Source: Marchantia polymorpha subsp. ruderalis (taxonomy: Eukaryota; Streptophyta; Marchantiopsida; Marchantiales; Marchantiaceae). Taken from it: a DNA stretch of 64,000 nt. Shown piece by piece: positions 34,222 through 62,800 of the stretch. The DNA lies in NCBI GenBank assembly GCA_037833965.1, contig AP031356.1, forward strand, positions 19,676,501-19,740,500, read 5' to 3'. A program made the translations under genes and the position numbers. Positions within the stretch are counted from its first letter, which is position 1. Each line of letters starts with the position of its first letter. The notes beneath the pieces are model-generated. The model had not been told where the DNA came from, did not search any database, and saw nothing but the letters and a program-made list of their open reading frames with translations.

Positions 34222-34225
34222 TTTT

Positions 34226-35572: not shown

Positions 35573-35574
<2 letters not shown>

Positions 35575-35582
35575 AGTTGGAA

Positions 35583-40349: not shown

Positions 40350-40354
40350 TGAAA

Positions 40355-40372
40355 TCTTAGTCCGGGGGTAAA
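40355..40372 (+). other. Gypsy-1 polypurine tract
   Basis: TTAGTCCGGGGGTAAA immediately before the 3' LTR, the usual position and G-rich form of the plus-strand primer. Confidence 0.6.
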
Positions 40373-41230: not shown

Positions 41231-41345
41231 GTTCGACCTCAAACCACTGTTTAATCATCAATCACGTTGACTGCGACCAAGTTCGATCATCAATCAGGTT
41301 GACAGAGACTATGTTCAATCATCAATCACAGTTTACAGTAACTAT
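41231..41345. repeat. CAACCACGTT short repeat (right part)
   Basis: The continuation of the array interrupted by Gypsy-1. Units ATCATCAATCACGTTGAC and GTTCGATCATCAATCAGGTTGAC occur with GTTCGACCTCAAACCAC next to the junction. Confidence 0.7.
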
Positions 41346-42175: not shown

Positions 42176-42199
42176 GCGTCGTTGAGCTATTAGGGATTT

Positions 42200-44460
42200 G
42201 GAGTTAGAGAAGGATGGTGCATATGTGTGAGCTTGAATTTTACTCGCGACAATGGTGATTTGATTCCTAGGAAGTAACAGTTTTGGATTTCTCGTCGGTT
42301 AGGCTTGACGATCGAGATTGTGACAAAGAGGAGACCGTCGTCGTGAGACACGAGTTCTATACGAGTTTGGGCTCGTTGATTGTCAAGTTGCCACAGTGGA
42401 GTGACTACGCAAGCCATTGGAGGATTAGAGAAGTGTTTCCTATGGCGCAAGACTTGTGAGGTGCTAGAAAGATTTTTCTTCGATTGGTCAGAAGCAGATT
42501 ACATGTTCTATCAGCAAGAAAAGATTAAACGTTCAATAGTAGGATTCGATAGAACAAGGTTGCGGTGTCATCGAGGAGAAGTAAATCCACTGGAACTTTG
42601 CAAGAATCGTTGGAAGCAGGGCCGAAGAGACAATCAGGGGGGGAAGAGCGACTGATTACTTACAGCTGCAAAAAGTTTCTGTTGTTTCAAATACACGCTT
42701 TTGCAACTTGCGTGCAATCAGAGAGGGTGGTGAGTGGGTGCAATCTTCGTGCTACGGCTAGAGCCCAAGCGTTGCGTTGTCTGCTGTTCGGTGCAGAGCT
42801 GCTGCAAATATGAGTCATTCGTTGGGACCTCGAATGTCGATGGTGTCAGATGCATTGCTTTGGTTGGACTAGAGGTACATCTCCACCTTCGCAATTTCTT
42901 TGCTGATGATGATTATTACTTTGCAGAAGCAGCATCATCCTCAAGTCAAAGGCTACATGCTCTTTACAATGCGTAGTCCTTGGTGTGCAGCGCTGTTGGC
43001 TCGCATATACCGTACTTGCCGCATGTCGGTGACTAGTAGCTACGCAAGATTGTCTTGCACTTTCCCGTATTGAAAACTAGCCACGCGAACTCTGTTGTGA
43101 TTTCATTTGACCGAGAAAGTATTTTGGACTCAGTCCCGGCTGGAGTCTTTCCTTACTCTCTCTTGTGCAAGAGGGAGCAGCGATGCAAATGCTGATTTGC
43201 ATATGTAGTGAACTGACATTACCTGCACGTTGCGCTACGAGTTTTCGTCAGGCGTAGGTTACTCATGATCTCTTGTGACTAACTTGTAAATTTAACAAGT
43301 TACAATCACGTAGTTAGTACTCTGCGTGAAGAATGTATTCTACATGGCTTGGCGACTAAGCCAGTGTAGAAGGATGGTTATGCTGGTGCAGTTTCAAAAG
43401 ATAATCTGATCAGGCTACATGAGAAGCCTAATCGTAGATACACCTAAACTATCAGAGGAGATTGAGCCCAAAACGTGAGATTTAGTGATAATGCAAGATG
43501 ATCACAATCTTCGGGAATTCCATAAAACTTATGCTCGACATTGAGTTGTGAAGGACTTGGTCTGGGTTTTGCAAACTGTGGTGCATCAAGAATGTACATG
43601 CATCTACAATTCATTCATGATCTACAATTTGGATCCCTCGAGCGGAGATTAAAAAAATAAATGAATACCCCGATACTTATGTGTACTCAGACAACAAAAG
43701 AGAGGTGAGTGTGCAACATAAACGTGCCAATGACTATTTTGGCCAAAGCACGTCCCTGAAATAGTCGACCAATAACGAGGGACGACAATCCAGATTTCAG
43801 AGAGCTGAATTTTGTCTATACAATGCAACTGTTCGAAGCACTAGCTTTTACATTCCTTGTAAGAGTCTTCAATATGACAAGTACTTCTGAGTGTACGTTA
43901 GCTTATTTAACCCAACAGTTGTAGTAATGATTAATAGTGGTAGGTAATAGCCGGTTGGCATGCTGAAAATCTTTGTTAGTGATTTTCTCATTTAATCATA
44001 GTCTGATAGACTCCTAGTAGTATAGTGGAATGTGATAGCCGAGCGTAGAGATTCTCTATGCAACCTGGTGGAAGAGATGTCATCGTAGGCGCTGGAGGCC
44101 GAAGTTGATGGCGGGCGATGGAGATCAAATCGAGATCGCGAAGCGATGCGATGTCACGTATGTGTTGTCTTGTTTTGTAATGTGTTTCCGTTAGACTGGA
44201 GAGTCGTTGCTAGCTGTTTGCTTGTGTTTGGATACTCTCCAGTCTTGCTTCCTGGTGCGCGCTCGTGTAGGAGTGACGCTGATTTCCGGAGTAGTTTTAC
44301 TCCTGTGTGTTGTCGATAGGGGGCTGGACTTGATCACCGGCCGGCCTATCTATTTTTCTCTCACGGTGAGACTGGAGCGATGACCAGTAGACCGTGAGAG
44401 TCTTCTTGCTGTGATAACATGTTAGGTTGCCAATACCCCTTAGCTAGTAGGGCTAGAGTA
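42200..44460. other. Unassigned stretch, probably old element sequence
   Basis: Short frames (42380-42655, 42565-42813, 42734-42976) have no recognised domain. The part 43940-44460 precedes the Gypsy-2 gag and may be its 5' LTR and leader, but no partner LTR was found, so this stays a guess. Confidence 0.4.
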
Positions 44461-44541
44461 GCTCAGTGCGGCACGACGTCAGGTGCGGATAGGGTTATTG
44501 GATGGAGATTTGGCAGTGGTGCAAGTTGAGGTTTTGTCATT

Positions 44542-46194
44542 ATGGAGCAATCTAGTGGTCTTGTCGAGGACCGCGGTGGATATATGCGGAGTGGGTTGAG
44601 GTATCGGCTACCTTCACCTATCTCGCCAGTTGTTGCAGAGGAGTACCGGTGTGTTGCAGACACAGAGTCTTCGGTGGTGATATCGTCCAATGTTCCAACC
44701 CCATTGATTTGGAACATGGACGGGATGTACAAGGTCGTAAAGGGCCCTCGACGTTACTCTGGTGTAGTGGGCACCATCGAGCTCGATGATTTTATTCATG
44801 AGTTTGACACGTGGTGTGATATGCAGTTTCTGCGTAACCTCACGTTGTTTACACCCTTCTTTGTGTGGAAGGGGTTATTTCAGCATTTGGAGGGGCTTTT
44901 TATGGACGATTATCATGAGTTTGGGAGAGATTATGCCGTAGAGATTGATGCATGGAAACGTCATTGTACTCCGAACTACTTATCCATTACCCAGGATGGT
45001 GTGGGTACTAGTGGAGGTTTGAGTATCAGCATCAGTGGAGGTGCGAGTAGTAGCATTAGCGAGGGTACCAGTGGAGCAATTGGCGCAATTGGTACTAGTA
45101 CCAGCAGCGGTGCTGTTAGCATTGCTGGTGGCAGCATGAGGAGAGATGCTAGTGGCGTACCTTTGTTTAGCCCCATTCCTGAGTTCTTCTAGAGTTTGAG
45201 GAAGAACTATCAAGGAGTGAAGATGGAGAAGTTGAGGAGACTCCAAGAAATCGAGCGGAAGACTGGTGAGAGTCTTCGTGAGGCATACACTCGTATGCGA
45301 CGTCTGATCTCGATTACTCACGGTGTGATTGAGGCACAGGCTATCAAGTATTGGTATCGGATTCTGGACAGAGAGTTGGATAGAAGAGTTCGTGATGCTA
45401 CTCTCATGAGCGACGCATCACTCACATTAGTCCATGTGTTTGCTCTTTCTGAGAAGATTGAGCTTAACATGGTGGAGGAGAGGGTGGTGACGTCTTCGTT
45501 TGCGAGGTTAACGACCACTACCTCGCGTATCCCACACAGTCCATCACAGTCTCGTCCCATGGCTAGTGGTAGTGGAAGTCGTGGAGTTCAGACACAACAT
45601 CCTTCGGGTCACAGAGAGCCTGGTGCGCGGCCACCACTGCCTTCATTTTCTGGCCAGCCTCAGGGACCATCATGTTGGACATGCGGAGGTGGTCATATGA
45701 GGAAGGATTGTCCCCGCGAGAGAGAGGGACAAACTTCACAGGCAAGGTCACAGATTGCAGAGGTGACATGTGATCATTGTCATCGACCGGGTCACCCTTG
45801 AGAGCGTTGTTTTGACCTTCATCCTTAGTTGAGATCTGGAGGTAGAGGTCGTGGCGATGATGCACCATGAGGCAGAGGTGACCGAGATGGCAGGGGCGGT
45901 AGAGGTACCGGTGCCAATGAGCGTACCGGAGCGAGTGCTACTTTTGCCACGGAGAGTGCTATGGCTGCTCGGATTGAGCAGTTGGAGCAGAGGCTTGCGG
46001 CTATGGTTGGTCTGGTGGCGAGCACTTCCACATCTTACGACGGAGAGGATTTCTCCTATTTGGCCAGTGTAGCACAAGTGGAGGCAGCAATTGCGGTGAC
46101 TAGAGGTGGTGCTTGTGCTTCAGAGCCACGTGGTGCGACAGTGGAGTTGGACCCTAAGAGGGGTGAGAGTGGACACCAAGCCAGACTACCCTAG
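44542..46194 (+). pseudogene. Gypsy-2 gag
   Basis: Starts MEQSSGLVEDRGGYMRS. A Gag-like helical region (ELDDFIHEFDTWCDM..FFVWKGLFQHLEG) is followed by a Gly/Ser-rich linker. Next comes QGVKMEKLRRLQEIERKTGE, an RNA-binding knuckle CWTCGGGHMRKDC (about 45673-45711) and a partial second knuckle CDHCHRPGH (about 45772-45795). A coiled-coil phrase ARIEQLEQRLAAMVG follows near 45964. One frame is kept throughout, with in-frame stops at 45190 (TAG), 45799 (TGA), 45826 (TAG), 45868 (TGA) and 46192 (TAG). The frame runs straight to the solo LTR junction. Confidence 0.82.
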
Positions 46195-46218
46195 TCCTTT
46201 TTGTTGTCAGAGGTGGGC

Positions 46219-49015
46219 TGCAACCTCCGGGCTGACTCTCACTCAGGTTTACCTCTGATGGCTTTGCGGTAGCGCATCATGGTTCTTGAAGACTAGGATT
46301 CATCCTCACACTCATGTCTCAAACACCTTCCCTCACAAACTCTCCATGTATCACTCCAACTCACACACAAACTCTCCTTACATCATTCTCTTCACATAAA
46401 CGCAAATACACGTCGATACTCCAAGATACTCAAAAACTTCACTCCTTCATTCCTGAAACAAGTCCTCACACATGACTCTCCAAACTTGCTTGAGAGGTGT
46501 TACTCTATCTCTATTTATACTACTTGAGAAGTTACCATAGTAACATGTGGTAATTTCTCCTACCTAGGTGTAATAACCCACCAAAGGCTAAAACTGCAAT
46601 ATAGTGGTAGAAAGGTCGAACCCACAGGGACAGAGGCAACACACAGAGTACAAAGTGTCACATTTAACAGACTATTGAAGAGTTTGAATTCTCAGGCGAC
46701 TCTCACTCCCAGAAATACTGCAAGTGTCCACTCGGAGATCACTCAGAGGTCGCACAGTGCAGCGTAGTTCACTCAACACACACACACACACACACACACA
46801 CACCTGAAACTATAGAAACACAACTCAGAGATCGGTTAGGACCTCTACTTAAGATTTCAGGGGGAAAGTCTCTCGCAAATACACTTAGCGAATCTGCGGG
46901 TAATGACTCCCAACTCCGGCTTTTACAACCCTTCCACTAGTTTCTTCTAGCACAGGGCACCCGGTTTGGACTTCCTACTTCGGATCGAAGTCACTCACAC
47001 GTGGTGAACAACACTATCGACTCACAAAACGCGCAGAGAACACAGGTTTGACCGAGAGACTCAGCTGAGAAACGATCCAGTAGCACACCATAACAGTCTA
47101 TTGAAGAGTTTGAATTCTTAAGCACTTGTCATTCCCAGAAATACTACAGGGGTTGCCCTGAAGGCACCTGCTGCAGCATAACCTGAATTTACAACCAAGG
47201 CTTACTCGAAGTAGCAAAACTTCACTTTGGCATTCAGGGGAAAAATCCAGAAGGAGTACAATCAAGAACAATCACTCGAAGGTGTAGGGGCGAACCGTTC
47301 AAGTATCTAACTAGTAACTAGCTCTGAGCATCGGCAATCACCCGCAGGTGTAGATCTGAACTACTCAAGTCTCTAACCAGTGTACTAGCTCTGAACATTC
47401 GGCCGAAGGCCTTCAGCTACAAAATGCGGATCGCCAAGTTGTAGCTCCTCTTGCGTGGTGACAGAACTAAGGACACAAACACGCAGAGAAAATGAGTTCC
47501 TGATCTGCACTTCCAAACTGGAAGAATCCCAAGGCAAGACGCCTTGAACTACTTTATACCTTCTAAGTCCTAACTAACACTACACTACCTGCTATGATGC
47601 GAGCCGCAACAGATCTTACACCTGAGGAGTCGGCGGCTGCCTTCCCCTCTAACTTACAACCTAAATCTAACCCTAACCCTTAATCTGAATCCTAAGCCTA
47701 CTGTATAGAGCCGCCAGCGTCTTTAACCGCTTTACATCCAAGATCTGAGGCTGAAAATTTGCAGGCATGCGTGGCCGGCTAAGACCAACGGCCCCATCAA
47801 ATTTCAGATCCATCCGACCGTTCATCACAAAGATATGGGCCCCGCAAGATCTCTGAACCCAGGCCGACATTCCTTCTCCAAAATCCGAGGTCCGGGGGAC
47901 CCACATGCCGCTTGAATGCCGTTCCCGCGATTATGGGTAACGGCCTGCTCCTCACGTGCGACTTCACGCCCCGCCGTTCTGCCTCCCATGCGCGATTTCA
48001 CACCCCGCTGTTCTACCTCCCACACTTGACATAATCCCGCCAATTTCAGCCATTGGGAATCTTCTGCCACGTGGCGCCGAAGGCGTACCGCCGAAGGCAC
48101 TCTTCCGCAGAAGTCCCTTGCCCCGAAGGCGGCTACCGCCGAAGGCGTTGACCCGAAGATGTCCGTCGCCGAAGGCGTTGACCCGAAGGCCCTCCCTATC
48201 AGTAATTTCCGACACTCATAACTCAGTGACCTCTTATCCGTTTCACGAGTTCTTGGGCTCGTTAGAACCAACGCGTCGAGCTCTTTCCAACAAGACCCTA
48301 AGTAACTCAAGGCGTTACGAATTGAGAAAGTAAGAATGATTGATCTACCGCCGAAGGTGCTCGAAGCGGGTCCTGCAGCATGAACCGCCCGTTCCATCCC
48401 AAGCGTTCGACTATGGCCTAAGCCCAAAACCCCTTGACTGTCCTCGATCCTCTTTTTACTCTGGTTTTGCGTACCGATTACTATTTACAACTACTACCGC
48501 GGTACTTACTATTCAAAAATGTTTTAGTTCCGACGAAAAACAAAAAGTGGGTTACCACACTAGGTAAGTTTGACTAACCCTCTTTATGTGGCAACATGCC
48601 ATTGGTCTAGCTAAACCTTCTAGAAGTTTCCGGAATCCAAGGTTGAAGTCGCGACATGCCATTGGAAACTTTTAAACTTCTACAAGTCAACACTAGACTT
48701 AGTCTAGCCAATCATCTTTCATACATTTTAGTCTAACCAATCAAATCCAAGCTTTAAGTCAAATATCTAATCCTTTGGATTCTAGAACTTTTGTATAAAA
48801 CAAAATAGAAGTGCTCACTCCACTCTTCTAGAACTTCGCTACTTAATCCGCCAACTATAGACATTGTAGCCAAACTTAGTCATGACTAGATAAACTTAGT
48901 TATAACTAACTAGTTTAGTCATAACTAGCTAGACTTAGCTATGCCTTGGCTAATCGTACTTAATCACTTGACCACTTCTAGGACTTAGTACATATGTGCA
49001 ACACCCGGTCTTACA
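46219..49015 (-). mobile_element. Solo LTR of the Gypsy-1 family, reversed, split by another insertion
   Basis: Read on the minus strand, 49015 starts TGTAAGACCGGGTGTTGCAC and the far end at 46219 reads CGGAGGTTGCA, matching both ends of the Gypsy-1 LTR. Removing the insert at 46569-48559 leaves about 800 bp, near the 858-bp length, with many substitutions. It is therefore much older than Gypsy-1. There is no internal region and no second LTR, so it arose by LTR-LTR recombination. The flanks (TGGGC and AGGCA) do not show a clear TSD. Confidence 0.93.
46569..48559 (-). mobile_element. LTR-like TG..CA element, short copy (1991 bp), nested in the solo LTR
   Basis: Ends are TGTAATAACCCACC and GGGTTACCACA, with an exact 5-bp duplication CTAGG on both sides (46564-46568 and 48560-48564). 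It is homologous in reverse orientation to both ends of the element at 57942-62795, including over 900 bp of the promoter-bearing end. It lacks the long ORF. It contains a (CA)n run near 46778-46802 and several CGCCGAAGGCG motifs at 48073-48190. A conserved TATAAAG lies at 47552-47558 on the minus strand. Confidence 0.9.
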
Positions 49016-49114
49016 AGGCAGAAGTTCGTCTATGAGACCTGCACAGCATAGTGACCCTAAAGTGAGAATTGAGGTTCTTACATCTTCTATTGTGGAGGCA
49101 GATGTGCCATCTAG

Positions 49115-51750
49115 CCGAGTACTGCATCACACCTCCAAAGCATATCCGAACTCAATCCATGCCCACGTATTCTGCGCTTGTGGTACCATACCCGACCCAT
49201 ATCCAAAGAGACAAAACCGAAACCCGAAACGAACCCAAGTTGCCTCTGAATTGATACCCGACTAGCCCCGAATAGATGAGAAAAAACATACTTTTTTTTA
49301 TTTAGCTCTAAGTTTTCGGTGGAACCGAAACATGATGGGAAAAAAACATACGTTTTCTAATTCGCTTTCAGTTTTCTCTGGAATTGAAACATGAACACAT
49401 GTGAAAAATCCAATTGTTTTCTATTTAGCTTTCGGTGATAGGTGGAACTTTAATCTGGACAGTAGACGACATTAGCATTGAGCGTAGAAACATGAGATCG
49501 TCGAGCTTGGAAAGATGCAACAGGTTGCGTTTTTTGCTCATAGTATTCCCTGCGTCCGAGAAGTTACTCTCCGATTTTGCGCTAGAAGTTGGAATGGTTA
49601 ACACAGAGCGAGCTAGTCGAGAAAGTACAGGGAATTCGTTTTGATGGATCTTCCACCAAAATAAAACTCCATATTTAGATAGAAGTGTGCTTTCATCGTC
49701 ACTACACATGTGACAAATATATTTGTTGAGTTTTGTTCTCAAAGAAAAATCAAGCTGCACGTCATCGGCAAGAGGCTTTTCTTCGATGGTGCTGTCGCTC
49801 TCAAAACTGTACTCGGCAAGACGACGCGCAACACGTCGATTGCCCTCTTTCTTTTTTTTATGAGATCGCACACTCCTCTTGCCGATGCTAGAGCCAATCA
49901 TATGATCTTTCATCATATTTTCTAGATTTTTTTGACCAAGTTCATTATCGGCAGAGTCGATGCCAAATTTGTCTAAACGACACTTGGTTTTAGGATTGAG
50001 TAGGGTGGCAATGACATGAATGTCACTCCAAATAAACTTCTCCTTGATCAGTTCCGCAAATTTTGGCTTCAAGGCGATGAATGCAGGAGAGTCCTTCTTC
50101 AGTGTGGTTATCGTGCCATCTTTCTCCTTGGTGGTGATATCCGCCGCACCAACCTGGCAATGCTTTAGCAGATTCTGCCAAAAATAGAGTACACGGTGTA
50201 TCGTAGGCTCCGCAAACATCTCCAGAGCTAGGGTGGCCTCCTGAAAGGGCACTAAAAAAGCAATGAACTCCTTGAGAAGCTCATGATCAATCTTGTTGAC
50301 CTTGGAAACCAATCCGCAACCTCGTGCACGTAATATCTCAGTCAACTCCGGGAGTGCTTCGTCAACACTGATCATGCAACGGAGGGCAGAATTCCATCGT
50401 GTCGCATTTTCCTACTTGAGGGTCTTTGCAATCTCATCCTGAAGATTCGCTTGTTTGACATATGTCACGAGAACTTTGACCTGATCAATAGTATCAAACA
50501 ACTCAAGGGCTAGATGGTAAAACTCATAGAAGGGAGCAGATTTTTTACCTTCAACCATTCGAGTTCTCTTGTCGATAATCATTGTTAGGATGGTACTAAT
50601 GATGTGATCACAACACGGTATCCAACCATAGAGACTAGGAATGCCATCTGCAGAGTGCATATTTGAGCCTCGGTCTGTGACAACTGTTACCTGGTCATAT
50701 TTATTGATGCCAAATTTTTGTAAAATACCCTCATATTTTTCCAAGACGTCAGATCCGTGGTGCGGCCCAGGAAACGGACTGCATGCAAGCGTGCGGTGAT
50801 GTAGAGTGAACTCGTCATCGATGAAATGCACAGTGACGGATAGAAAAAATACCTTGTTGATGTCATTGGTCCAAATATCGGTTGTGCTGCCAATCTGAAT
50901 TCCTTCCGCCAGATGTGCCTTCAATGCGGCAATTAGTATCTCCCTTCCAGCATTAGATTGCATCTACACATTTCTACTCTCCGTGGTTGGATCAGGAAGA
51001 ATATTGTCCACAAGCATGCCCACCTTAGAGTTCACCCCAATGTTGAGGACGGTCTGTGTATAGTTCCTAAACCCTGTGCCCTTCACAATATAAAATGGAC
51101 GCATGTCAACAGCGCACATGTCCGCCAACGCCACGGTGATGAGTATCTTCTCACTTGTAGTCGCATCGCGGCGTGTTGCTGTAGCTGTCATGACTTGATT
51201 GGTCTCTGCAGGCGTACATGAGTGTTTGGACATGGCGGTGGTTCCGTTGGCTGATCTGTATTGATATACAGTGAGACATTTGTTGCAGCAGACAAAAGAA
51301 TTATCACTATACCACAAATGTTCACCAGTCTCCTTGATCGCATTAAATGAAAACGATGTCTAGACACCTGCCCTAGCTTTACGGTTTTTCACTCGATAAT
51401 AGAGACCGTCTTCTTTCTGCAAATCTGCGGTGATTTTTGTGTTCAACGTGAACATATCTTTGGAACTCATCTCAATTGTTATTGTCATCTATGACAAACC
51501 TCGAGAGTAACGGACGAGAAGAACAAGTGCGATTAGCGCTGTGTCAAGTCAAAAAATACTCCACGACCTTTGTATTGAGTAACCCTAATTTCTATTTTTT
51601 AAACGTAACCATATTTCTAAAACATATTAAGAAAAGTCCAACCCGAAACCGAACCGGACGTTTCTAGTTTGGTCCAAACCCGAACCATACCCATCGGTTC
51701 GGGCGGGTTTGGTTCGGATTTCGAGTATGGGTACCCGATGCAGTACTCTG
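49115..51750 (-). mobile_element. hAT DNA transposon (hAT-2), 2636 bp, inserted in Gypsy-2
   Basis: The ends are CCGAGTACTGCATC and GATGCAGTACTCTG, inverse of each other except one base, and begin like hAT TIRs (CAG). An exact 8-bp duplication CCATCTAG flanks it (49107-49114 and 51751-51758). Subterminal regions carry CCCGAACC/GGTTCGGG repeats. Removing the element and one TSD restores a continuous Gypsy-2 frame across the junction. Confidence 0.95.
49425..51470 (-). pseudogene. hAT-2 transposase, whole frame with three TAG codons
   Basis: A 682-codon frame from the ATG at 51470 to the stop at 49425, with no frameshift. It is interrupted only by TAG at 51362-51360, 50966-50964 and 50414-50412. 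N-terminal: a Cys/His zinc-finger region with CNKCLTVY and SKHSC (BED-like). Middle: RNase H-fold catalytic parts STTDIWTN and VVTDRGSNM, and CCDHII, the usual C-x-x-H of hAT. C-terminal: dimerisation region with FWWKIHQNEFPVLSRLAR and SAKSESNFSDAG, holding the catalytic Glu, then SKKRNLLHLSKLDDLMFLR. The remarkably complete sequence suggests recent inactivation by point changes. Confidence 0.9.
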
Positions 51751-51758
51751 CCATCTAG

Positions 51759-52500
51759 TGCAGTGATGCGGATGGCCACTTTAGTGCTGAGATCTCCATT
51801 GTTTTCAACCACGTAGCTGATAAACTCTGGTATTGATTTGACTCGAGTATTTCGGGTAGCAGTCACGTCGTGTGAGCGTGGGAGAGTCACAGCTACGAGT
51901 GCCAAGATACGCGAGGATACGGTTGAGGATCCATCCTCAACGTCTACACTGTTTGAGGAGACGACTTGGCAGGCGGCAGCGGCAAGGATGGAGTATTTAC
52001 CAGCTCGACCAGCCATTGATCGTGATCCTTGGTGTGTGTATGGTGGACAACCGGAGTGGCATATTGTGGTTGGTCAGTTCTACCGGACAGGTGTATGTCC
52101 CAGCCAGAGTTTTGCTGGATTCTAGTGCACAGCCCTTGATGTTGGACAAGGCTGCATGCATTAGCTTGGATATTCGGAGTTCAGAGTTAGAACCTTGCCC
52201 ATTCTTGATCCAAACATCTCTTGGTGGCGCCAGCGATAGATCTTACTTTATGACCAGGGAGAGCATAGCGGTGTAGTTGAGGCATGATCATGCTCATGAT
52301 AGCTTGCAGTTTGGACTTCGTGCTGTAGTTACATCAGCAGAGTCATATGATGTGCTTGTTGGTGGAGCTGTGTTATATCCGATGGGTTTTCGGTTGGACT
52401 ATTGGACGGAGAGTGTTGCCAACGGTCCAGGATGACAATCTAAAGATGGACGGCTCAGCGAGCTGCCTGTGAGATTTATTTCTCGGGATTGACCTCTTGG
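51759..52500 (+). pseudogene. Gypsy-2 gag end and aspartic protease
   Basis: Frame one continues from before the hAT-2 insertion (VEADVPSS) through TLFEETTWQAAAARMEYLP to about 52085. The reading then moves to the frame used by the rest of Pol, probably through one lost base. The protease signature ARVLLDSSAQPLML has DSS instead of DSG. It is followed by SSELEPCPFLIQTSLGG, ESYDVLVGGAVLYPMGF and RLDYWTE, typical of the retropepsin of algal and lower-plant Gypsy-like elements. Stops lie at 51814 (TAG), 52274 (TAG), 52433 and 52490 (TGA). Confidence 0.8.
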
Positions 52501-52819
52501 ATCTTCATATGCGGTCTTAGCATCCGTTGCGGGTTTCAGCGGAGTGCTTAGCTAGTCGGATGACTTGTTAGAGGGGAACATGTCCGACGACGATACCTCA
52601 ATCTACGAGAACGTGGAGGAGGTTGTGAGTTTCGCAGCGGTAGTGCCTTCACCCTTGGATATTCCACTTTGGAGTTCTTGTTAGGCACTACAATTGGAGG
52701 CTGATAGGTTGGTGAAGAAGGCTTGGAGTGAAGCCTCTTTACCAGCAGACGCATAGAGAGCTTTAGGTGATCGGCTAGTTTGTGGTTCTAGCACGCTATC
52801 ACCATTAGTTACTACACCT

Positions 52820-54052
52820 ATTGCATGGGAGTATTACTTAGAAGGTGTTTGTTTGCTGGATCTTTTTGGTGGTATCAGCACAGGTTTGGTTGCAGTGTTG
52901 TAGTCATGTATTCTCGTACGGAGATACTTGTGTGTGGAGAAGGACGAGACTGCACGTCGAGTCTCTTCACGACATGTTCCACAGTTGATGGAGCGTTTTC
53001 CTTCGTTATTGCCGCGATCAGCTGTTCGAGGATACCAGAAGGCTTTGCCTTCAGACATTTTGTTGTTGGGGGCGCCAGACCTTGACCGCGTTGGCCATAT
53101 TGATATGGTGATTGCGGGCTGGCCATGTGAGGGACACACACGCGCTAGACATGGGATAGGGTTGCATGAGCCCAGATCTCGGATGGTTTGGGAGATGATG
53201 CAAGTGTTACGTCATCTCCAGGTGCAGCAGACACACCTGGTACTTTCTCCAGCATACATTCTGGAGAACGTACCATTGTTGGTTGACACTCGGGCTCAGC
53301 TGATGGCGAATGTCCATCAGGTCCAAGCATGGATTGGATCAGTAGTACTGTTGGATGTTGCGAGGGTTGGATCACGTGCTCTTCGTGCACGTTTATGATG
53401 GACTAACCTTTTGCCACGAGAGATATTGCGTCATGCCTATGATTCTATGCAGCGTGATCATACACTCACTATTGACAATATCTTGGATGTTTCCCGTCAC
53501 TCTCAAGTGGTGAGAGTTGCTGACAGATCACTTATGGCGTTGATGAATCACGTAGGTCAGCATCGGATGGCTTTATCTACATTGGTTAGTTATCCGGCAT
53601 CACATGCATATCGTGATGATGGACCTGGACTACTATGGAACAATACACTACATCAGTTGGTGGAGCTCAACGCTGATGAGAGAGAGCGTGCGATGGGATT
53701 TATTACTGGTGTGACCGCAACTGCTTCAGTTTCTGAGGCTTCGCGTCGTCAGGTTTTGGGTAAGGCTATGGACCTGAATTGCTTGACGTGGATTGTGAGT
53801 TTGGGTTTGACCAAGCAACGCTGTTTGCGCGTGGATTTGGTGATTATTACACCACTTGTTAGCTCATTGCCTACCGAGACGATAGTGGCAATGGCTGGGG
53901 GCGACAGGCAAGATATTTGCCTTCCTTGGAGTTTATGGGACGTGACGAGAGGACTTGCCAGAGTTGCAGCCCATGCAGATGGAGAGGTTTCCCATGAGAA
54001 GATTGCTACGAAGGAGAGTACATATACCTCTTCTTTGGAGTATGTGGCGTAG
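52820..54052 (+). pseudogene. C5 cytosine-DNA methyltransferase domain inside Gypsy-2 Pol
   Basis: Predicted to transfer a methyl group from S-adenosylmethionine to C5 of cytosine. Motifs in order: I, LLDLFGGISTGL (52853-52888), the AdoMet loop; IV, IAGWPCEGHTRARHGIGLHE with catalytic Cys at 53126-53128; VI, LENV (53261-53272); VIII, LLDVARVGSRALRARL then WTNLL (53347-53413); then TLVSYPASHAYRDDGPGLL; IX-like ELNADERERAMGF (about 53668-53703); X, SEASRRQVLGKAMDLN (about 53735-53780). Spacing and wording are close to the DNMT3/plant type and contain no insert. In-frame stops are TAG at 52901 and TGA at 53396. It lies in the same frame as the upstream protease and downstream RT, so it belongs to the element rather than to a neighbouring host gene. 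It could only be made by an intact relative. Confidence 0.9.
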
Positions 54053-54058
54053 CAATTA
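54050..54058 (+). promoter_or_regulatory. Candidate translational readthrough stop between DNMT and RT
   Basis: TAG followed by CAATTA, an exact UAG-CAR-YYA context like the leaky stop of tobamovirus replicase. The inverted copy keeps TAG followed by CAATCA (54914-54906, minus strand), still CAR-YYA. Among about 20 in-frame stops in this region it is the only one in this context. Confidence 0.5.
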
Positions 54059-54566
54059 GTGAGAGTATCGGCTTCCTCTAGTGTGACTATGGAGGAATGG
54101 GAAACATTGATTGGTTCCCATATCACAAGAGGAAAGAGGCGACAATTAACACAATTCCTACGAGAGCATAGGAATTGTTTTGCTTTCAGTATGAAGGAGT
54201 TGAATGCTTTGATCGGACCCGGTATACGGATAGAATTGGCTAGTGATACGTCAATTTTCCGTCGTCCTTATCAATACAGTGAGATGGAGAGGGATTTGAT
54301 TCGGAGTAGGACGTTGGACCTACTAGAGGATGGACCAGTGGAGTTATCGCATGGTGAGTATTCGTCAGCCACTGTCATGTCGGTGAAGAAAGATGTACAT
54401 GACAACTACACGGATAAGCGTATGTGTGGAGACTATCGTCATTTCAATTGGCAGACGAAGTCCGATAAGTATGCCATGCTTACACCTGAGGAGATCTTTG
54501 ATGTGGTGGGACATGCGAGGATTTTTAGTACTTTGGATCTTCGGGTAGGATACCATCAGTTGCCAG
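54053..54566 (+). pseudogene. Gypsy-2 reverse transcriptase, N-terminal half
   Basis: The frame continues from the DNMT after the TAG. It reads EEWETLIGSHITRGKRRQL, then the RT entry IFRRPYQYSEMERDLI, LLEDGPVELSHGEYSSATV, the KKDVHDNYTDKRMCGDYR finger motif and the palm A motif FSTLDLRVGYHQ with its catalytic Asp. Sequence then switches to the inverted duplicate, so the DD box, RNase H and integrase are lost. Confidence 0.88.
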
Positions 54567-55071
54567 GTACATCCTTCTTCACCCGCATGACAGTGGTTGA
54601 CGCATGCTCATCATGCGATAACTCCACTAGTCCAGCCTCCAGTAGGTCCAACGTCCTACTCCGAATTAAATCCCTCTCCATCTCACTGTTTTGATAAGGA
54701 CGACGGAAAATTGACGTATCACTAGCCAATTCTATCCGTATACCGGGTCCGATCAAAGCATCAACTCCTTCATACTGAAAGCAAAACAAGTCCTATGATT
54801 TCGTAGGAATTGTGTTAACTGTCGCCTCTTTCCTCCTATGATATGGAAACCAATCAATGGTTCCCATTCTTCCATAGTCACACTAGAGAAAGGCGATAGT
54901 CTCACTGATTGCTAAGCCACATACTCCAAAGAAGTGGTCTATTTACACTCTTTTGTAGCAACCTTCTCATGGGAAACCTCTCCATCTGCATGGGCTGCAA
55001 CTCTGGCAAGTCCTCTCGTCACGTCCCATAAACTCCAAGGATGGCGAATATCTTACCTGTAAACGAATCTA

Positions 55072-55135
55072 ATGTGTGTATGTGAGTAGCATGTCAGCGA
55101 TGTAGAGTGTATGGCGATATGTATTCGGACGACAC
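55072..55135 (+). repeat. 65-bp repeat, copy 1 (partner at 57868-57932)
   Basis: ATGTGAGTAGCATGTCAGC, then ATGTAGAGTGTATG and CGATAT.TATT, is shared with 57868-57932 in the same orientation. The following sequence to about 55330, with TAATAAATGGTACACC and a TATAAATATGGGATTG segment, looks like an LTR end, but no family was assigned. Confidence 0.7.
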
Positions 55136-55559
55136 ATGGAGGATTTACCCTAAACCTAAGAAGTATCGAGACTTCTAACCGATAGTCTCTCTATTAATAA
55201 ATGGTACACCAACCCTCACTACCATATAAATATGGGATTGTAACACCCTCTGAGGTCATTCAATATACTTTACATCCATACTTCATATCCATTTTTTATG
55301 AAGATGTAGCATGTTTGGGACTTCCGTTGGATCTGATTTGAAACTAGAGTTAGTATAGCCAATAATATTATTTTGGCCACAGCGAAAATGAAGACCAAAA
55401 TCTTATGTTCCTCGAATGTACATGAGGAGATGCTTGATGCCTTGCCAGTGTCGTGCTGTGGGGCGTTGGCTGTGACGGGCGAGAACGCTGACGGCAGAAC
55501 TAATGTTGGGTCGAGTATTTATCGCCAAGTAGGCGAGTGCGCCGTATGCTACTAGATAG

Positions 55560-56285
55560 TTCGGTTTGTCCAACTCCTTCTCCTCGAGTTCAGTAGGACG
55601 ATAGGGATCTTGCTCCTCCTTATCATAAGTGCTGATAGGTCATTCACGTTGTTCATGTTGAAAGTCTTGAGAAGCTTGCGAGCATAGGTTTGTTGATGAA
55701 GAATCATACGTCCATCTGCAAGATAAGTAATCTAGAGTTCAAGGCAATATGATGGTTTGCCTAACGGTTTCATCTCAAACTGTTTAGCTAGTATGAGTTC
55801 AACACACTTGTTCAATGCTGGTATTGCAATGCAGTTCAAATCATTGACATAAACAGCGAGGATCACAAATTGTTTATCTTTCTTCAAAACAAAGATGCAA
55901 GGTAGAGCAAGATGATTTTGGAAGCCATTAAAAACCAATTAGGACTTCAAGTGATGGTACCATGCTATTCTGACTTGCTTCAGGCCATAGAATGCCTTCC
56001 GGATTCGTAGCCCGTGAAAATGTCCTGGTTGAATTGGTGGCAAGCGTGATACAAACTCTGGTGCAGGTTTGATATGCAGATATGTATCCAAGTCGCCATA
56101 GAGATATGCAGTGACAACATCTAGGAGACGTGTTTGAAGTGAAAGTTATACTAATCTCAGAATCATAGATTTAGGTATAAATACAGAACGACGAGACAAT
56201 CTAGACAAAACAACATGACAAACTTGTAAGCCCTTCGAAGTATAGTATTTGTTGTTCCTGTGGACGAAGCTCAAAATTGGATGAA
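55560..56285 (-). pseudogene. Copia reverse transcriptase fragment
   Basis: On the minus strand, LLDVVTAYLYGDLDTYLHIKP leads to KAFYGLKQVRIAWYHHLK, a stop, then PCIFVLKKDKQFVILAVYVND (normally YVDD), FEMKPLGKPSYCLEL and DGRMILHQQTYARKLLK. This is the central Copia RT. The YVDD box has become YVND and stops are present. Breakpoints are approximate. Confidence 0.85.
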
Positions 56286-56289
56286 TCAC

Positions 56290-57100
56290 GTATATGATTA
56301 TGGTAGTGTGTTTGGAATGCGTTGTTTATTCGTTGTCATTACAATTATAAGCTCATTATATGTTCAAGTGATGATGCTACAAGTATGACAAGACATTTAT
56401 CTAGAGTTGTGACGCGTATTCAGGAGGTGATTAGACCATATTTCATTCGTGTCTAGTGTTTGTTGCATCAAATAGATATTGTGATGCAAAAAATTTACAA
56501 AAACGCTAGTCGTGGATTTTATAAGACTCTGACCTCATTGTAATTTATTTAACGACGTCATAAAATTTTGATTGATGAAATGCAAGTCATTTGTCCAAAT
56601 TTATCTACTGCTCGTTGGGCCTCAATGTCTAGTGTGTTACATTTTTTGGTTAAAAGAAGATCTGAAATCATGGTTTATTTTGTCAAGAATGATGCTTCTC
56701 AACGGATTTGCGACATGACTTCATTGTCTTGGTGGACCTTGATTGCAGTTGTAAACGAGCTTTCAGGCTATGTGAGAAAATGTGTGGAAGTTTCACAAGG
56801 AAGAATTATCACTTTGCTACAGCAAATGTCAGTTCTCCAAGATTTGCTAGCTAACTTACATCACTTTGCATGTGTAAAGCGAGTTGAGATTGAGTTAAAC
56901 TCGTCTCCAGCCTACAACATATTATTTTGGACAGATGGCAAGTTTGTCATGCCAATTTGATTGGATTAATTGAAGATCACGATTTCTTTGCTACTCAATC
57001 ATTGGTAGAGCTAGACATAAACTCAAAAATTGAAGTTTTGCATACAGATGATAACTTGTTTTTTGGAAAAGGTTTGCAATCTAAGCAAGGTAGAAGCGAC
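56290..57100 (+). pseudogene. hAT-like transposase fragment (hAT-3)
   Basis: The frame resembles the central hAT/ZBED region: SSDDATSMTRHLSRVVTRIQE, then LLHQIDIVMQKIYK, and LSTARWASMSSVLHFLVKRR (the TRW motif) with QQMSVLQDLLANL. Stops and frame changes are present. It seems unrelated to hAT-1 and hAT-2 at this level of reading. No TIRs were identified. Confidence 0.65.
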
Positions 57101-57229
57101 ACGTGATGAGTTCACGTGATGACACGTGATGAGTTTAACCAGGAGAGTTGTAATATTTGTCTCCTTGCTTACCTCAGTAACTTGTAGCTTTTGTCATGTA
57201 TTTTTGTATATACTTAATATAGTCGTCCG

Positions 57230-57530
57230 GCTAGAGTTTCTGTTCACGTAGGGTATAGAGTCGACAACAACTCGAAGAACGTCAATTCTTCGAGTCGAGC
57301 CTGTAACGTTGGGACAAGTGAGTGCCCTCAAACGTTGACCTGGACTCTCAAGATGAGTGGGTTGGGCTCGACTTATGTATGTATGATGGTTTTGTTGCCA
57401 CTGGGATAATCAAGATTGACGTGTTTGTTAGTGGGGAAAGACATGTTTATTTCACTCAAAAAACTCTCGTTCGAGTTTTGTTGGAGAATGACAAAAATTG
57501 TTGAATAGAAACTCGGGCGATTTTGTAGCT
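57230..57530 (+). repeat. Fragment of the Copia LTR family also at 41950-42175
   Basis: Shares TCTTCGAGTCGAGCC, CGTTGGGA, GACCTGGACTCTCA, GAGTGGGTTGGGCT and GTTTATTTCACTC-like pieces in the same order with 41950-42175. Both ends are undefined. Confidence 0.65.
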
Positions 57531-57867
57531 ATTTGCAATAGTGTGTGGATTGAACTATTTGAATACTCAAGATGTTAGTGCTAGTTCGATTTGGAGTAGA
57601 AGTGAATTTCGTGATGAATTCGGAAGTAATTTAGAAATTGATTTTGTTATTCAGAACTTCAGAGGGGATGATAACTTCATCTTCACATGTTATGAATTAT
57701 GGATAGGCGACTAACGATGGGTGACATAGCACCCGACCTACTGGTTCGCGCACCTTGAAGCTGTATAACATGTAGTTGTAAATAAAGCTACTTGGGAATC
57801 AGAGGGAGCTTACCGCCAGCTAGGGGAGCGAGTTGTGGTACATTTGAGTGTGTATGTTTTCGTGTCC

Positions 57868-57932
57868 TATGTGTGCGTATGTGAGTAGCATGTCAGCAAT
57901 GTAGAGTGTATGACGATATATATTTGCAGGAC
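57868..57932 (+). repeat. 65-bp repeat, copy 2
   Basis: Partner of the copy at 55072-55135 in the same orientation. It ends nine bases before the TG..CA element inserted at 57942. Confidence 0.7.
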
Positions 57933-58089
57933 AAAAATTACTGTGGTAACACACTTTTTGTTTTTTTTGCAGAATTTAAACAATTTTAGAAAACTAGTAC
58001 CGAGGCAGTGTTTGTAGTTAGAAAAGGGTACGTTAAATAGAGTGGATTGAGGAGATCGTCATGAGGTCACGAAGAATCGCGTAGTCGGA

Positions 58090-58525: not shown

Positions 58526-59434
58526 TCGCGCGCTCATGGAAGGAAAGCAACTCAGAGTCGGAAGCGCCTTTGGCGGCTGCGCACGGAAGGAAAGCGCCGG
58601 CCGGATGTACACCTCTGACGTGGCGCTGATAGGCGGATGCGCTGGCATGACTTGCGCCGGCGGAATATGCGCCGTCAGCAATGGACGAGGCAGAACGGAC
58701 AAAATAAGCGGTACGAATACGCGCCGGTGTAATTCGCGCCGACTGGATGTGCGCCTCCAGCAAGGCGCCGACGGATAAGGAACACGCCAGCGGCGACACG
58801 CCTCCGGTGATGGTCGGGTTAGGAAAAGACAACATAGCCGACGTATACACTGCGGCGAACTCGAGTCCGGAAGACGGTGGCGGCGGGAGAATTCAATATT
58901 CACGCATGCGAATGCGCGCAGTGCGGAGACGTGAATTCGAGCATGCAAGGGCGAACCGTTAGGCCGTATAGCTGGCTGCGTAAATTGTAACCAGTAAGAA
59001 CGTTGGACGATCTTGAATTCGGAGAAGAAAAGACTGCTCTCCAGTCTCATTCTCTCATTCTTGATTTTGCGATTCCCAGCTTCCAAGATTACGCGCAAGG
59101 GCGGAGAGACCTGCAGAGAGAGGAGAGAGTGCGGAGACGAGTTGCGCAAAGATCTTGACAGACCTTGGAGAGAATTGCGAGTAGCGAACTTGAGCGCGAG
59201 AGAAGAGCGAGTGACAGCAGTCAGTGCTTAAGCAGCCGAAGCGCAGTGGCGATTGTGAGAGAGCGAGTAGAGTGGAGAGCGTCTGTGTGTGCAGGAAACG
59301 CAATGTCGAAGGTCCCCCAGCTGCGAGTGTCTCCACTCAGGGTGCCGCAGATCGGTCTACGCGCATTTCAAGATGTGCTGATGGGGCTGAAGCTCGATTT
59401 CCTCCTGTGGGGATGGAACTAGACATGTCCGGAG

Positions 59435-61540
59435 ATGGTGCGCGAGTATCTGCAGGAGAGACACAAGCCCTCACGCGGATTCCGTCCACATCCAGAAAGA
59501 TGGGACATTTGTGACTGGGCGCAGGTGTTGGGCAGGTGTGCCGGCGAGGAAGGGTATCTCCTCTTCGAGGCCGATAGCGTGAAGGTGTCCCAGGAGGAAA
59601 AAATCTCCTACAATGAGCTTTTCAAAGTTGCCAGGCATCCCAAGAACGGTTTCCGGACACGGGATTACAAAGATCGATTGCGGAGAAATGTCGCGACTGC
59701 ATTGTTGCAGATATTGCAGCCGACCAAGACCGCTTACATGCATGGTTGGCAGGTAGGATTTGTGGAGCTAGTGTTGTCAGGAGCTCCAGTGCATTGGGCA
59801 CGGCTCTTGTGGAAGGTGACGCGCCAACATGCGCAAGAAGAGAGAGGAGGAACCCTCAATCATCTTTCGCCTTACCTGATTGTGTTTTATCGGGCGATGG
59901 GATGTTTGACAAATTCAGAGCGGACACGGTTTTCGCTGCTGACACGGAGCTATCCAGGTAGATACTCACGGGAGGCCGAAGTAGACACGGATCCGGACGA
60001 GGAACCTGCCAGTCCGCCTCCGGCTCCGCCCCCAGCAAGAGCAGCAGAAGAACGTCGAAGCGAGCGCATTCCGCGAAAGCGGAAGTGGGATGAGAGACCT
60101 GAGGACAGGCAGCCGGAAGTGCCAGCTGCGCCGACTCGTAGTCGGCCAACCAACGAGCCTCACAGTCGACCAAAACAGAAGGCACGCAAAATGCCAACCA
60201 GTACTGAGGAGACTGGGCGTACTCCGGTCCGGCGGAATCCCACGCAGGAGGAGATAATCGCGCAGATTCTGGGGAAGTCGACAAATACCTCTGCGCAGAA
60301 GGCACCAATGCCTTCGGAAGAAAACGGACGAACTGACAGTCGACCGACTACGAGTCGGGCGACTGAAGGTCGACAAACGGAAGAAAGGCCGATTGAGCGG
60401 CGCGTTGAACCGGACAACAGGCCGGAAGCAAAAGAGAGTTTGGCTGACGAGCCAACAACCCTCAGAGGGTCGTCTTCGGCGGAAGGCAATTCTGGGAAAA
60501 CGCCGCCAGCAAGCAGGCCAAGTGGAGTGAAGACGCGCAGGGTGTATCCGACTGCCAATCGGACAACTGCTAGTCGGCCGACTGCGAGTCGGTCAACAGA
60601 GAGCCGGCCGGATTCGCCGACTGCGAGACGGACAGGGCCGGCGACCAGTGTGCGGACGCCTTCGGCGGACGCACCTTCAGCGAAGACACCTTCCGCGCAG
60701 ATCGCGCCGGAAGGGCAGGCAGCAGAAGCGGGCGGTGCAAAGGTGACAAAAGTCACTGCGGCGTCGACCCCTTCGGAAACCGAAGATCGAGCCGGAACAG
60801 GGGCCCAAGCAGTGGGATCCCCCACTGCCTTGGATATTTTAGCAGGTAGTGGAGCGGCAGTCGCGGCGGAAGCTGCTGCGCGCCACAGTTCCAAGGAGTC
60901 GCCAAGGGATTCGGTGGCGACTGAAATCCTCGAAACGGAGGATGAGACGAGCTCGGAAGAGCAGGAAGCGGATTCTGTGCAGAAAACGCCAACAGGGGTG
61001 TTGTGCGAGCAGATAGTCCCACTCCTACGATATCTGGATCGCAAGACATCCAAGTACTCGGGTACCGGAAAACCGCAGTCTTATGTGGAGACTGTCAAGC
61101 GTAGGACGAGGAGCAAGGTGGCCACTTGGGCCTCTAGGTGCCAAGTATTGCAGGATAGGAACACTACCCTCCGACAACACCTGGCGGTCACACAGAAGCT
61201 ATACCAAACCTTGCAGCAGCAGAGGGAGGATGCGGCGACGAAAAGCCAGGCGGATGCCGAGCTAATGCGGGCAAAGATTGAGTCGGAATTGCAGGAAGAG
61301 CGGAGACAAAACCGCATCCTAGCAGCAGAGCTTGCGCGCCAGACGCGCGCCTTAGAAGAAAGTCAAAGAATACGCAAGGAGGATGAGGAGTTGTTGCGCA
61401 ACTTGCAATCCGAGTGCTCGGATTTGCGGGCGCAGCGTGCGGAAGCGGAAATGCAGCTAGCAGAGGTGGAAGTCAGCTGCCGGGCGCGAGAAGAGTTGGC
61501 GACGCGGGTGACTCACTGTCTAAAAGGATACGCCCATTAG
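59435..61540 (+). CDS. Long ORF of the TG..CA element, 701 aa, coiled-coil C-terminus
   Basis: Family not firmly recognised. Residues 1-175 look folded (RWDICDWAQVLGRCAGEEGY, FVELVLSGAPVHWARLLWK, LNHLSPYLIVFYRAMGCLT). They vaguely resemble the putative plant transposon-protein domain of Athila-type elements. Residues about 180-520 are Arg/Ser/Thr/Pro-rich with repeated SRPT/ASRST units. Residues about 528-700 form a long predicted coiled coil (LQQQREDAATKSQADAELM, EESQRIRKEDEELL). The same frame is open upstream from the ATG at 59303 (or 59165) up to a TAG at 59420. After its own TAG at 61538 it continues coding-like (ERITLREFELRAAALTEGD) to 61858. The ancestral frame was probably about 850 codons with two TAG changes. 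Confidence 0.65.
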   Translation: MVREYLQERHKPSRGFRPHPERWDICDWAQVLGRCAGEEGYLLFEADSVKVSQEEKISYNELFKVARHPKNGFRTRDYKDRLRRNVATALLQILQPTKTAYMHGWQVGFVELVLSGAPVHWARLLWKVTRQHAQEERGGTLNHLSPYLIVFYRAMGCLTNSERTRFSLLTRSYPGRYSREAEVDTDPDEEPASPPPAPPPARAAEERRSERIPRKRKWDERPEDRQPEVPAAPTRSRPTNEPHSRPKQKARKMPTSTEETGRTPVRRNPTQEEIIAQILGKSTNTSAQKAPMPSEENGRTDSRPTTSRATEGRQTEERPIERRVEPDNRPEAKESLADEPTTLRGSSSAEGNSGKTPPASRPSGVKTRRVYPTANRTTASRPTASRSTESRPDSPTARRTGPATSVRTPSADAPSAKTPSAQIAPEGQAAEAGGAKVTKVTAASTPSETEDRAGTGAQAVGSPTALDILAGSGAAVAAEAAARHSSKESPRDSVATEILETEDETSSEEQEADSVQKTPTGVLCEQIVPLLRYLDRKTSKYSGTGKPQSYVETVKRRTRSKVATWASRCQVLQDRNTTLRQHLAVTQKLYQTLQQQREDAATKSQADAELMRAKIESELQEERRQNRILAAELARQTRALEESQRIRKEDEELLRNLQSECSDLRAQRAEAEMQLAEVEVSCRAREELATRVTHCLKGYAH

Positions 61541-61890
61541 GAGGTGGCAGCTCAAGAGAGGATCACACTCAGGGAGTTCGAGCTTCGGGCGGCGGCATTG
61601 ACGGAGGGTGACAGTCGGAGTCGGCGGCGAGTAGCGAGGAAATTAGAATCCTTCTTGTCGGGTGCGCGTGACACTATGGCGCACTTAGAGTCGGAAGTGA
61701 CTGCAGCCCTCCGACGCCTGGGGTTGCGCAGCCGGTCGGAAGATTGGCATGGTAGAGATAGAGAGCGAGGCAGTCTGGCGCGCAGGAGGCGCAGCACCGG
61801 ATCTGCAGAGTGCAGTAGTGTAGTTTGGTTTCGTGCAAGTGTTGCGAGTAGTAGATAGGATAGCGTAGTGTTAGTTAGGACCTTTGAGGG

Positions 61891-61897
61891 TATAAAG
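61891..61897 (+). promoter_or_regulatory. Conserved TATA box in the TG..CA element
   Basis: TATAAAG followed by a small hairpin CAAGGCG..TGCCTTG. The same arrangement is kept in the short copy (47552-47558, minus strand). It is about 30 bp downstream of the extended ORF end and 900 bp from the right terminus. Confidence 0.55.
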
Positions 61898-62800
61898 TAG
61901 ATCAAGGCGTTTTGCCTTGGGACTCTTCCAGTTTCGGAAGTGCAGATCAGGAACTCACTTTCTTGGCGTGTTTGTGCATTTGGTCCTGGCACCACGTAGA
62001 GAAGCTGCAGCATAGCGAAGTTACCGTATGTTGTAGTTGAAGGTCTTCGGCTGAATGTTCAGAGCTAGCACCCGGTTAGAGACTTGAGTAGTGCGGATCT
62101 GCACCTGCGGGTGATTTCTGATGCTCAGAGCCGGCTCCGAGTTAGATACTTGAACAGTTCCTCCTTACTCCTTCGAGTGACATATCCTGATTGTACTCCT
62201 ACGGGAAGTTTCCCGTGAATGCCAATGTGAAGTTTTATTACTTCGTGTAAGCCTTGGTTTGCAATTCAGGTTGTGTGTGTGTTACTGGATCGTGTCTCAG
62301 TTAAGTTCTCAGTCGGGCCTGCACTCCCTGCGTTTGGTGTGAGTCGAGGGTGACGTCCACGGCGTATGAAGAGGCTTCGTTCCGAAGTGGGAAGTCCAGT
62401 CCGGGTACCCTACGCTAGTTCCTTGCGGAAGGGCAGTAAAAGCCGGAGTGGGAGTCACTACCTGCAGAACCTCTGAGTGAACTTTTGAGACACTTTCCTC
62501 CTGAAATCCGAAGCGGAGGTCCTGACCAACCTCCGAGTTGTGCTTTTGCCAGTTTCAGGTGTGTGTGTGTATGTTGAGTGACTACGCTGTACTGTGCATC
62601 CTCCGAGATCCTCCTCCGAGTCGAGCCTCCGAGTCGAGCACTGCAGTATTTCTGGGAGTGACAGTCGCCTGAGAATTCAAACTCTACAAAAGTCTGTTAA
62701 ACGTGACACTGTTTACTCTGTGTGTTGCCTCTGTCCCTGTGGGTTCGATCTTTTTACCACCATACTGCAGTTTTAGCCTTTGGTGGGTTATTACAATTAC

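Follow-up and report, generated by a model that had tools for sequence, protein, structure and literature searches.

The 64,000-nucleotide stretch of Marchantia polymorpha subsp. ruderalis DNA analysed here (contig AP031356.1, positions 19,676,501 to 19,740,500; hereafter the window) contains a dead copy of a Ty3/Gypsy-type retrotransposon family whose members encode a DNMT3-type cytosine-5 DNA methyltransferase (DNMT). In this family the enzyme lies on the Gag side of a conserved UAG codon, a predicted leaky stop of the plant-virus type, and the integrase-bearing frame behind that codon ends in a PHD finger. A fuller reading appears to us evenly balanced between right and wrong: the leaky stop would dose the methyltransferase, the enzyme would methylate the element's own complementary DNA (cDNA), and the PHD finger would tether the integrase.

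A sequence-only reading of the window had placed a cytosine-5 methyltransferase, with its motifs in order, inside a Gypsy-like polyprotein at 52820–54052. The motifs are indeed readable in the translation of about 52820–53779 (+ strand), and PF00145 matches the piece 52904–53395 (E 9e-6, 25.8 bits, cut-off 22); a Pfam search with the piece 53399–54049 gave no match. The element copy itself proved far larger than that span, extending over about 41861–57933 and being broken by a hAT element and further insertions. Its parts, identified by comparison with young copies carrying two open reading frames (ORF1 and ORF2; RT, reverse transcriptase), and the insertions found in it are as follows.

41861–42144, + strand: the degraded copy's 5' terminal repeat, A1 (BLAST with the A repeat; identity to A2 of a young copy 83%; start read by eye)
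44066–46217, + strand: leader and gag-coding portion of ORF1 with five premature stops, the zinc knuckles lying close to its end (blastn identity 91% in the leader and 88.8% across 2.08 kb)
49017–49127, + strand: short ORF1 leftover between two later insertions (tblastn with ORF1, 68%)
49425–51359, - strand: hAT DNA transposon remnant, an insertion and no part of the element (PF05699, Dimer_Tnp_hAT, E 1.1e-18 on 49425–50408; adjoining minus-strand ORFs)
51748–52026, + strand: ORF1 linker from gag to protease (tblastn, 86%)
52028–52325, + strand: aspartic protease segment, LLDSSAQ where intact copies have LLDSGAQ (mapped from ORF1 residues 691–790)
52820–53779, + strand: pseudogenised cytosine-5 methyltransferase domain of DNMT3 type (stops at 52901 and 53396; WPCE; ALR; PF00145 and translation)
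54050–54058, + strand: leaky-stop motif TAG-CAA-TTA at the end of ORF1 (sequence comparison with the family)
54053–54565, + strand: N-terminal 172 codons of ORF2 (RT), free of internal stops (tblastn, 83% protein identity to a young copy)
54558–55060, - strand: inverted duplicate of 53904–54407, i.e. ORF1 end and ORF2 start, 92% identical (window self-comparison)
57656–57933, + strand: 3' untranslated region plus terminal repeat B, with GGACA as the last bases against CGACA in intact copies (blastn, 80%); likely, but not certainly, part of the same copy as the methyltransferase

Evidently, this copy is a fossil. Four ORF1 pieces can be aligned to a young copy (44530–46224, 49017–49127, 51748–52026 and 52022–54049), and they contain 13 premature stops, five in the first and eight in the last. 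The latter, all upstream of the family's own stop at 54050, lie at 52274, 52433, 52490, 52553, 52682, 52754, 52901 and 53396; two of them (52901 and 53396) fall within the methyltransferase domain. The 13 stops rule out a single open polyprotein for the window copy. The proposed uninterrupted frame from an upstream protease to a downstream RT thus holds in part: a protease-like segment and an RT fragment are present, but the frame is closed by stops. At two positions invariant in 12 diverse elements the window copy also departs from the family, WPCQ being changed to WPCE and AHR to ALR. Over 2.8 kb it is 88.5% identical to the young copy that served as our yardstick. The window's own 5' region (42200–44000) gave, besides itself, 17 partial or short matches only in the genome.

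We next consider the family as a whole. The genome searched comprises 241,466,482 bases in 9 contigs, and copies with the same domain order, for which the sequence-only reading had recommended a search, are plentiful. A PF00145 profile search returned at least 123 scored places (290 candidates), at least two of them host genes (a stand-alone DNMT3, L001, and DRM, L002), and 24 of the 123 matches sit in open frames of 1,351–1,365 amino acids. Twenty of these 24 loci were sampled, each picked for a DNMT match in a long ORF1. All of them carry ORF1 plus more long frames downstream; ORF2 is open over 1,042–1,045 amino acids in 15 and broken or interrupted in the other five. A 21-base pattern spanning the junction of the two frames has 171 exact matches in the genome, its backwards control none. 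Element proteins reach 94% identity to annotated Marchantia polymorpha proteins, which places the host in Marchantia or very near it. The idea that a Gypsy-type element bears a cytosine-5 methyltransferase, and does so in a land plant, is supported. The family is young and numerous in this genome. At one locus (L040) two element units stand in tandem with a period of 8,316 bp, the A repeat joining the leader almost directly, without the long 5' region; recombination or a spliced transcript could account for this arrangement.

In the yardstick, ORF1 (1,361 amino acids) comprises gag, CCHC knuckles, the LLDSGAQ protease motif, the DNMT (about residues 957–1262) and some 100 more residues. The knuckles and LLDSGAQ are visible in the translation; the profile matches of gag and protease lie below cut-off (Retrotrans_gag E 0.012, RVP_2 E 0.24), as do those of aspartyl protease families to the homologue P0015 (E 5e-5 to 8e-5). 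ORF2 (1,042 amino acids) contains RVT_1 (8.9e-34), RT_RNaseH (2.4e-35), H2C2 (8.7e-16), rve, a DDE integrase (2.7e-13), and at its C-terminus a PHD finger (PF00628, 9.1e-11). The best PDB match of the RT is Ty3 RT (E 3.9e-75). A Ty3-type RT and RNase H followed by a DDE integrase, with a zinc-knuckle gag and an aspartic protease upstream of RT, is the constitution of a Ty3/Gypsy element.

ORF1 and ORF2 are in register and separated by a single TAG. This conserved codon contradicts the earlier suggestion that DNMT and RT share one uninterrupted frame. TAG precedes 165 of the 171 exact junction matches (the pattern itself fixes CAAC after the stop), and in 20 of 20 copies the next codons are CAA and either CCA or CTA, in the window fossil CAA-TTA, i.e. 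UAG-CAR-YYA. The residues immediately before the stop vary between subfamilies, while the stop and its CAA are kept. Type I readthrough is defined by UAG-CAR-YYA in the available excerpts of PMC11166343, and the family has this signature together with an open, conserved downstream frame. We infer that the UAG is a leaky stop of the plant-virus type, at which readthrough is predicted. The DNMT precedes it in all 20 sampled copies; sharing an ORF with gag and protease, it is therefore on the Gag side and not in Pol.

The family DNMT is closest to the DNMT3 class. Its profile matches DNMT3A with E 4e-22, DNMT2 scoring lower, the predicted fold is nearest to DNMT3A/3B, and its motifs follow the linear order of the DNMT3 family. 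Catalytic residues are invariant among elements down to 37–38% identity. Between two subfamilies the ratio of nonsynonymous to synonymous substitution rates (dN/dS) of the DNMT is 0.13–0.18 at dS 0.20–0.33, and purifying selection between them is shown statistically, from coding sequence comparison, for both the DNMT and the PHD finger.

In the fossil, C-to-T changes amount to 61/475 in CG and 66/515 in CHG, in excess of 111/1599 in CHH and of 102/2271 for reverse transitions; a young pair is far less changed (CG 13/804, CHG 11/807, CHH 23/2736, reverse 53/3942). Judging from this pattern, integrated copies were probably methylated.

Gag-side position of the DNMT before a leaky stop, combined with a PHD finger, suggests a packaged writer plus a chromatin reader. 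Most ribosomes would stop at the UAG and yield Gag-protease-DNMT, and a minority would read through into the full polyprotein. If Gag-protease-DNMT is the main product, the DNMT would be packaged at Gag-like stoichiometry and freed by the element's protease, leaving many DNMT molecules beside the cDNA in the particle. There the enzyme might methylate the element's double-stranded cDNA de novo prior to integration, with CG as the probable target. The PHD finger would tether the integrase to a particular state of the histone H3 tail. Pre-methylated copies could then be accepted as ordinary silent chromatin and their methylation kept by host MET/CMT, limiting harm to the host and shielding the cDNA.

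Several points weigh against this scheme. The dN/dS of the DNMT exceeds that of RT, and within subfamilies it is 0.18–0.50 (four pairs, few changes). The direction of changes in the fossil was polarised by one young copy, not by an ancestor, and its CG/CHG decay is fully explainable by host MET/CMT alone. Other Gypsy elements thrive in this genome without a DNMT, for example the one at 33364–41233 of the window. The closest relative in print, KnitGypsy-Dnmt3 of the alga Klebsormidium nitens, showed no methylation in a yeast test, which according to the available text of PMC5890265 its authors called inconclusive because human DNMT3B failed too; in the same assays DNMT3A and two Symbiodinium element enzymes were active in de novo methylation.

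An alternative is self-restraint: the DNMT would act in trans on integrated copies, not on fresh cDNA, and would control copy number to spare the host. Slower transposition was raised as an option by de Mendoza et al. 2018 (available excerpts of PMC5890265), the Gag-side position would supply much enzyme, and the window fossil displays methylation-type decay. High copy number and the recent look of many copies indicate, however, that any restraint is weak, and how a Gag polyprotein in the cytoplasm would reach integrated copies is not obvious; we consider this explanation unlikely. Counter-defence, in which methylating or merely binding element RNA or cDNA would block host nucleases, deaminases or small-RNA targeting and the chromatin state would be beside the point, seems to us improbable to a like degree. 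A DNMT on the Gag side suits a nucleic-acid-binding particle component, and RNA methylation and protection from editing have been discussed in print (PMC5890265, in the parts available), but profile and predicted fold point to the DNA-methylating DNMT3 class rather than to DNMT2.

That the DNMT is a passenger or decaying domain, an evolutionary relic without present function, we regard as very improbable. The window copy is dead, and the DNMT ratios above that of RT, up to 0.50 within subfamilies, would fit such a relic; yet the ratio of 0.13–0.18 between subfamilies, the catalytic residues kept down to 37–38% identity, and the occurrence of the DNMT in liverwort and Sphagnum proteins and in environmental contigs all speak against it.

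The sequence-only reading had also spoken of the host's own silencing enzyme. A DNMT tree of 46 rows (43 retroelement DNMTs, human DNMT3A as three printed segments, host DNMT3 and host DRM) does not bear this out: with support of 100/99, all 43 retroelement DNMTs stand apart from the cellular rows, which are only three and long-branched. The host does possess the stand-alone genes L001 and L002, but that a Marchantia Gypsy element recently captured its DNMT3 or its DRM is hardly credible given this split and given that proteins of Sphagnum fallax, Calypogeia fissa and Riccia sorocarpa contain related DNMTs next to gag-, protease- or RT-like segments.

These relatives were found by protein searches. 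The first (E up to 1e-3, 4,253 candidates) gave 53 proteins, namely 14 from Marchantia, one from Sphagnum fallax, one from Monoraphidium and 37 without a species name. The second (1e-6, 7,999 scored) gave 168, the best 120 of which add five bryophyte names: Calypogeia fissa, Sphagnum troendelagicum, S. tenellum, Marchantia paleacea and Riccia sorocarpa. Calypogeia is a jungermannialean and Riccia a marchantialean liverwort, and Sphagnum is a moss. The S. fallax protein P0037 unites gag, protease, DNMT, RT and integrase; element context is also seen in Calypogeia P0133 (protease, DNMT) and Riccia P0169 (DNMT, RT), and six other named bryophyte proteins contain the DNMT alone (P0059, P0072, P0135, P0140, P0148, P0155). 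The name K. nitens was not seen among the matches listed in three protein searches, and a scan of IMG/VR gave 6 weak matches (28–40%). In the Monoraphidium neglectum protein P0052, a Gypsy polyprotein from a chlorophyte, DNMT-like segments come behind RT/RNase H, which suggests that DNMT-bearing elements extend to core green algae.

Two layouts can be distinguished. Type I elements have gag, protease and DNMT followed by RT, RNase H and integrase, with a PHD finger in some (Marchantia, P0051); none was found in the type I protein P0036. Type II elements, known from environmental contigs and EukProt proteins (P0042, P0046–P0050, P0175 and others), have RT, RNase H, DNMT and integrase in one long pol frame, mostly with a PHD finger. 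Among 76 proteins with both domains, the DNMT precedes RT in 13 and follows it in 63, in a biased sample, one search having been seeded with type II. In the DNMT tree type II forms one group (97/92), and type I is not resolved as one. An RT tree rooted with Ty3 and the DNMT-less Gypsy element of the window brings the DNMT-bearing RTs together (97/98) and type II again (100/100); constraining type I together was not rejected (p-AU 0.416). An earlier RT tree with Ty3 as sole outgroup contained the same type II group; the second tree leaves out the long-branched P0053, P0047 and P0042, and P0035 fills 42% of its columns. All this fits one old acquisition of the DNMT followed by a change of its position in the polyprotein, as far as such trees can tell; two separate acquisitions of related DNMTs are the alternative.

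Terminal repeats of the family are split. None of the 20 loci, each about 10 kb long, showed ordinary identical long terminal repeats; the layout is A1 … B1-A2-B2, the 3' end consisting of B1 (119 bp), GC, A2 (about 292 bp) and B2, which in the yardstick is the same as B1. A second B is present in 14 of the 20 loci (one partial), four have one B (L031, L034, L044 and the tandem L040), and two have none within the sampled stretch; B1 and B2 are 98–100% alike in 12 loci. Full-length A matches (40 scored of 529 candidates) start at base 1 in 24 cases, at base 3 in 15 and at base 2 in one, and coordinates yield ten A1/A2 pairs with an upstream member starting from base 3 and a downstream one from base 1. 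From the 15 upstream matches starting at base 3 and the 3' ends, the element termini would be TGTC...GACA. Two worked cases put the complete element at 11.6–11.7 kb. A 5' end of the yardstick about 117 bases before the locus start was ruled out, A1 lying 1.7–3.8 kb upstream of the leader in the five copies worked out by coordinates. Since 391 bases of the 5' region (L051–L052) recur at 92–97% in 39 other scored places, this region appears to be part of the element; in the same copy a 116-codon acidic ORF (33 D/E, 8 K/R) lies upstream of the gag leader.

Split or inverted terminal repeats are a trait of DIRS elements, and the family shares the split form, with B1-A2-B2 at the 3' end and A1 upstream. 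The DIRS class normally integrates by a tyrosine recombinase. None occurs among the Pfam families of yardstick ORF1 and ORF2 at E up to 1, where rve was found instead.

Other features of the window may be mentioned briefly. A second Gypsy element (33364–41233) is bounded by 861-bp direct repeats (33364–34224 and 40373–41233) that are 99.9% identical, and between them lies an 813-amino-acid open pol frame (37488–39926) without a DNMT; it is apparently a recent insertion. A 705-amino-acid open frame at 59423–61540 looks low in complexity and has no Pfam match. Over 60580–62282 there is a 93% match to the 3' flank of a different copy of the DNMT element (L038), so that this frame belongs to another repeat family. 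A tandem array at 21719–22827 has a 169-bp unit in 6.6 copies (84% matches).

DNMT retroelements are present here in a land plant genus amenable to genetics, and many of their copies look recent; the question why a transposon carries host silencing chemistry thereby becomes testable in a model organism. Annotation is affected too, element-borne DNMTs being listed as Marchantia proteins. More generally, and tentatively, bryophytes might host old "writer and reader" retroelements, in which a DNMT3 belongs to the Gag-side particle protein and is dosed by a leaky stop of plant-virus type, giving many methyltransferases for few RT/integrase molecules, a PHD finger on the integrase reads chromatin, and new copies are methylated inside the particle and reach selected chromatin with the silent mark already in place; we would lean somewhat against this generalisation. 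The available excerpts of PMC5890265 do not raise the idea of a packaged writer and chromatin reader for the algal case.

According to the same excerpts, cytosine-methyltransferase retroelements have so far come from dinoflagellates and one charophyte alga, K. nitens, whose DNMT3-carrying Gypsy elements were described by de Mendoza et al. 2018. A 2025 DNMT survey (PMC12344493, in part available) cites streptophyte and dinoflagellate cases and terms those with long terminal repeats Copia. One published paper states, in the part available, that transposons with such enzymes are absent from land plants, a statement that may mean vascular plants above all. Element-borne DNMTs are unmentioned in the available excerpts of the Marchantia and moss methylation literature (PMC5784723, PMC6453930, PMC10952607), and a search of open-licence literature by title and abstract start, bioRxiv preprints lying outside its scope, found no report on DNMT retroelements of liverworts or mosses. 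Within the reach of these searches, the following is new: that such elements occur in liverworts and Sphagnum, that their DNMT can lie on the Gag side ahead of a conserved leaky stop, that a PHD finger accompanies it in one element, and that environmental contigs contain a large type II lineage.

Compared with eukaryotic DNMT3 enzymes (human DNMT3A/3B and host DNMT3), the Marchantia element DNMT differs in being fused to retroelement proteins; no ADD or PWWP domain appears among the Pfam hits of ORF1 and ORF2. Type II elements share RT, RNase H, DNMT, integrase and often a PHD finger with the Marchantia family, have DNMTs that are 33–41% identical in the nine compared, and fall in the same larger group in both trees, but their DNMT lies between RNase H and integrase. 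SymbioDIRS-Dnmt3 of Symbiodinium is likewise a retroelement polyprotein with a DNMT3-type enzyme, two tested copies of which methylate CG de novo in yeast (excerpts of PMC5890265); it is a DIRS element, whereas the Marchantia family has a DDE (rve) integrase. Closest in kind is KnitGypsy-Dnmt3, as described in the available parts of PMC5890265: it is a Gypsy element with a DNMT3-type enzyme in its own polyprotein, conserved catalytic residues, purifying selection and a DIRS-like repeat structure on Gypsy content. Compared by description rather than by tree, it differs in that its DNMT lies in the Pol ORF, not before a UAG in the gag-protease ORF, and in that those parts of the published account mention neither a leaky stop nor a PHD finger. 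Its host, moreover, is an alga, and that of the present family a land plant.
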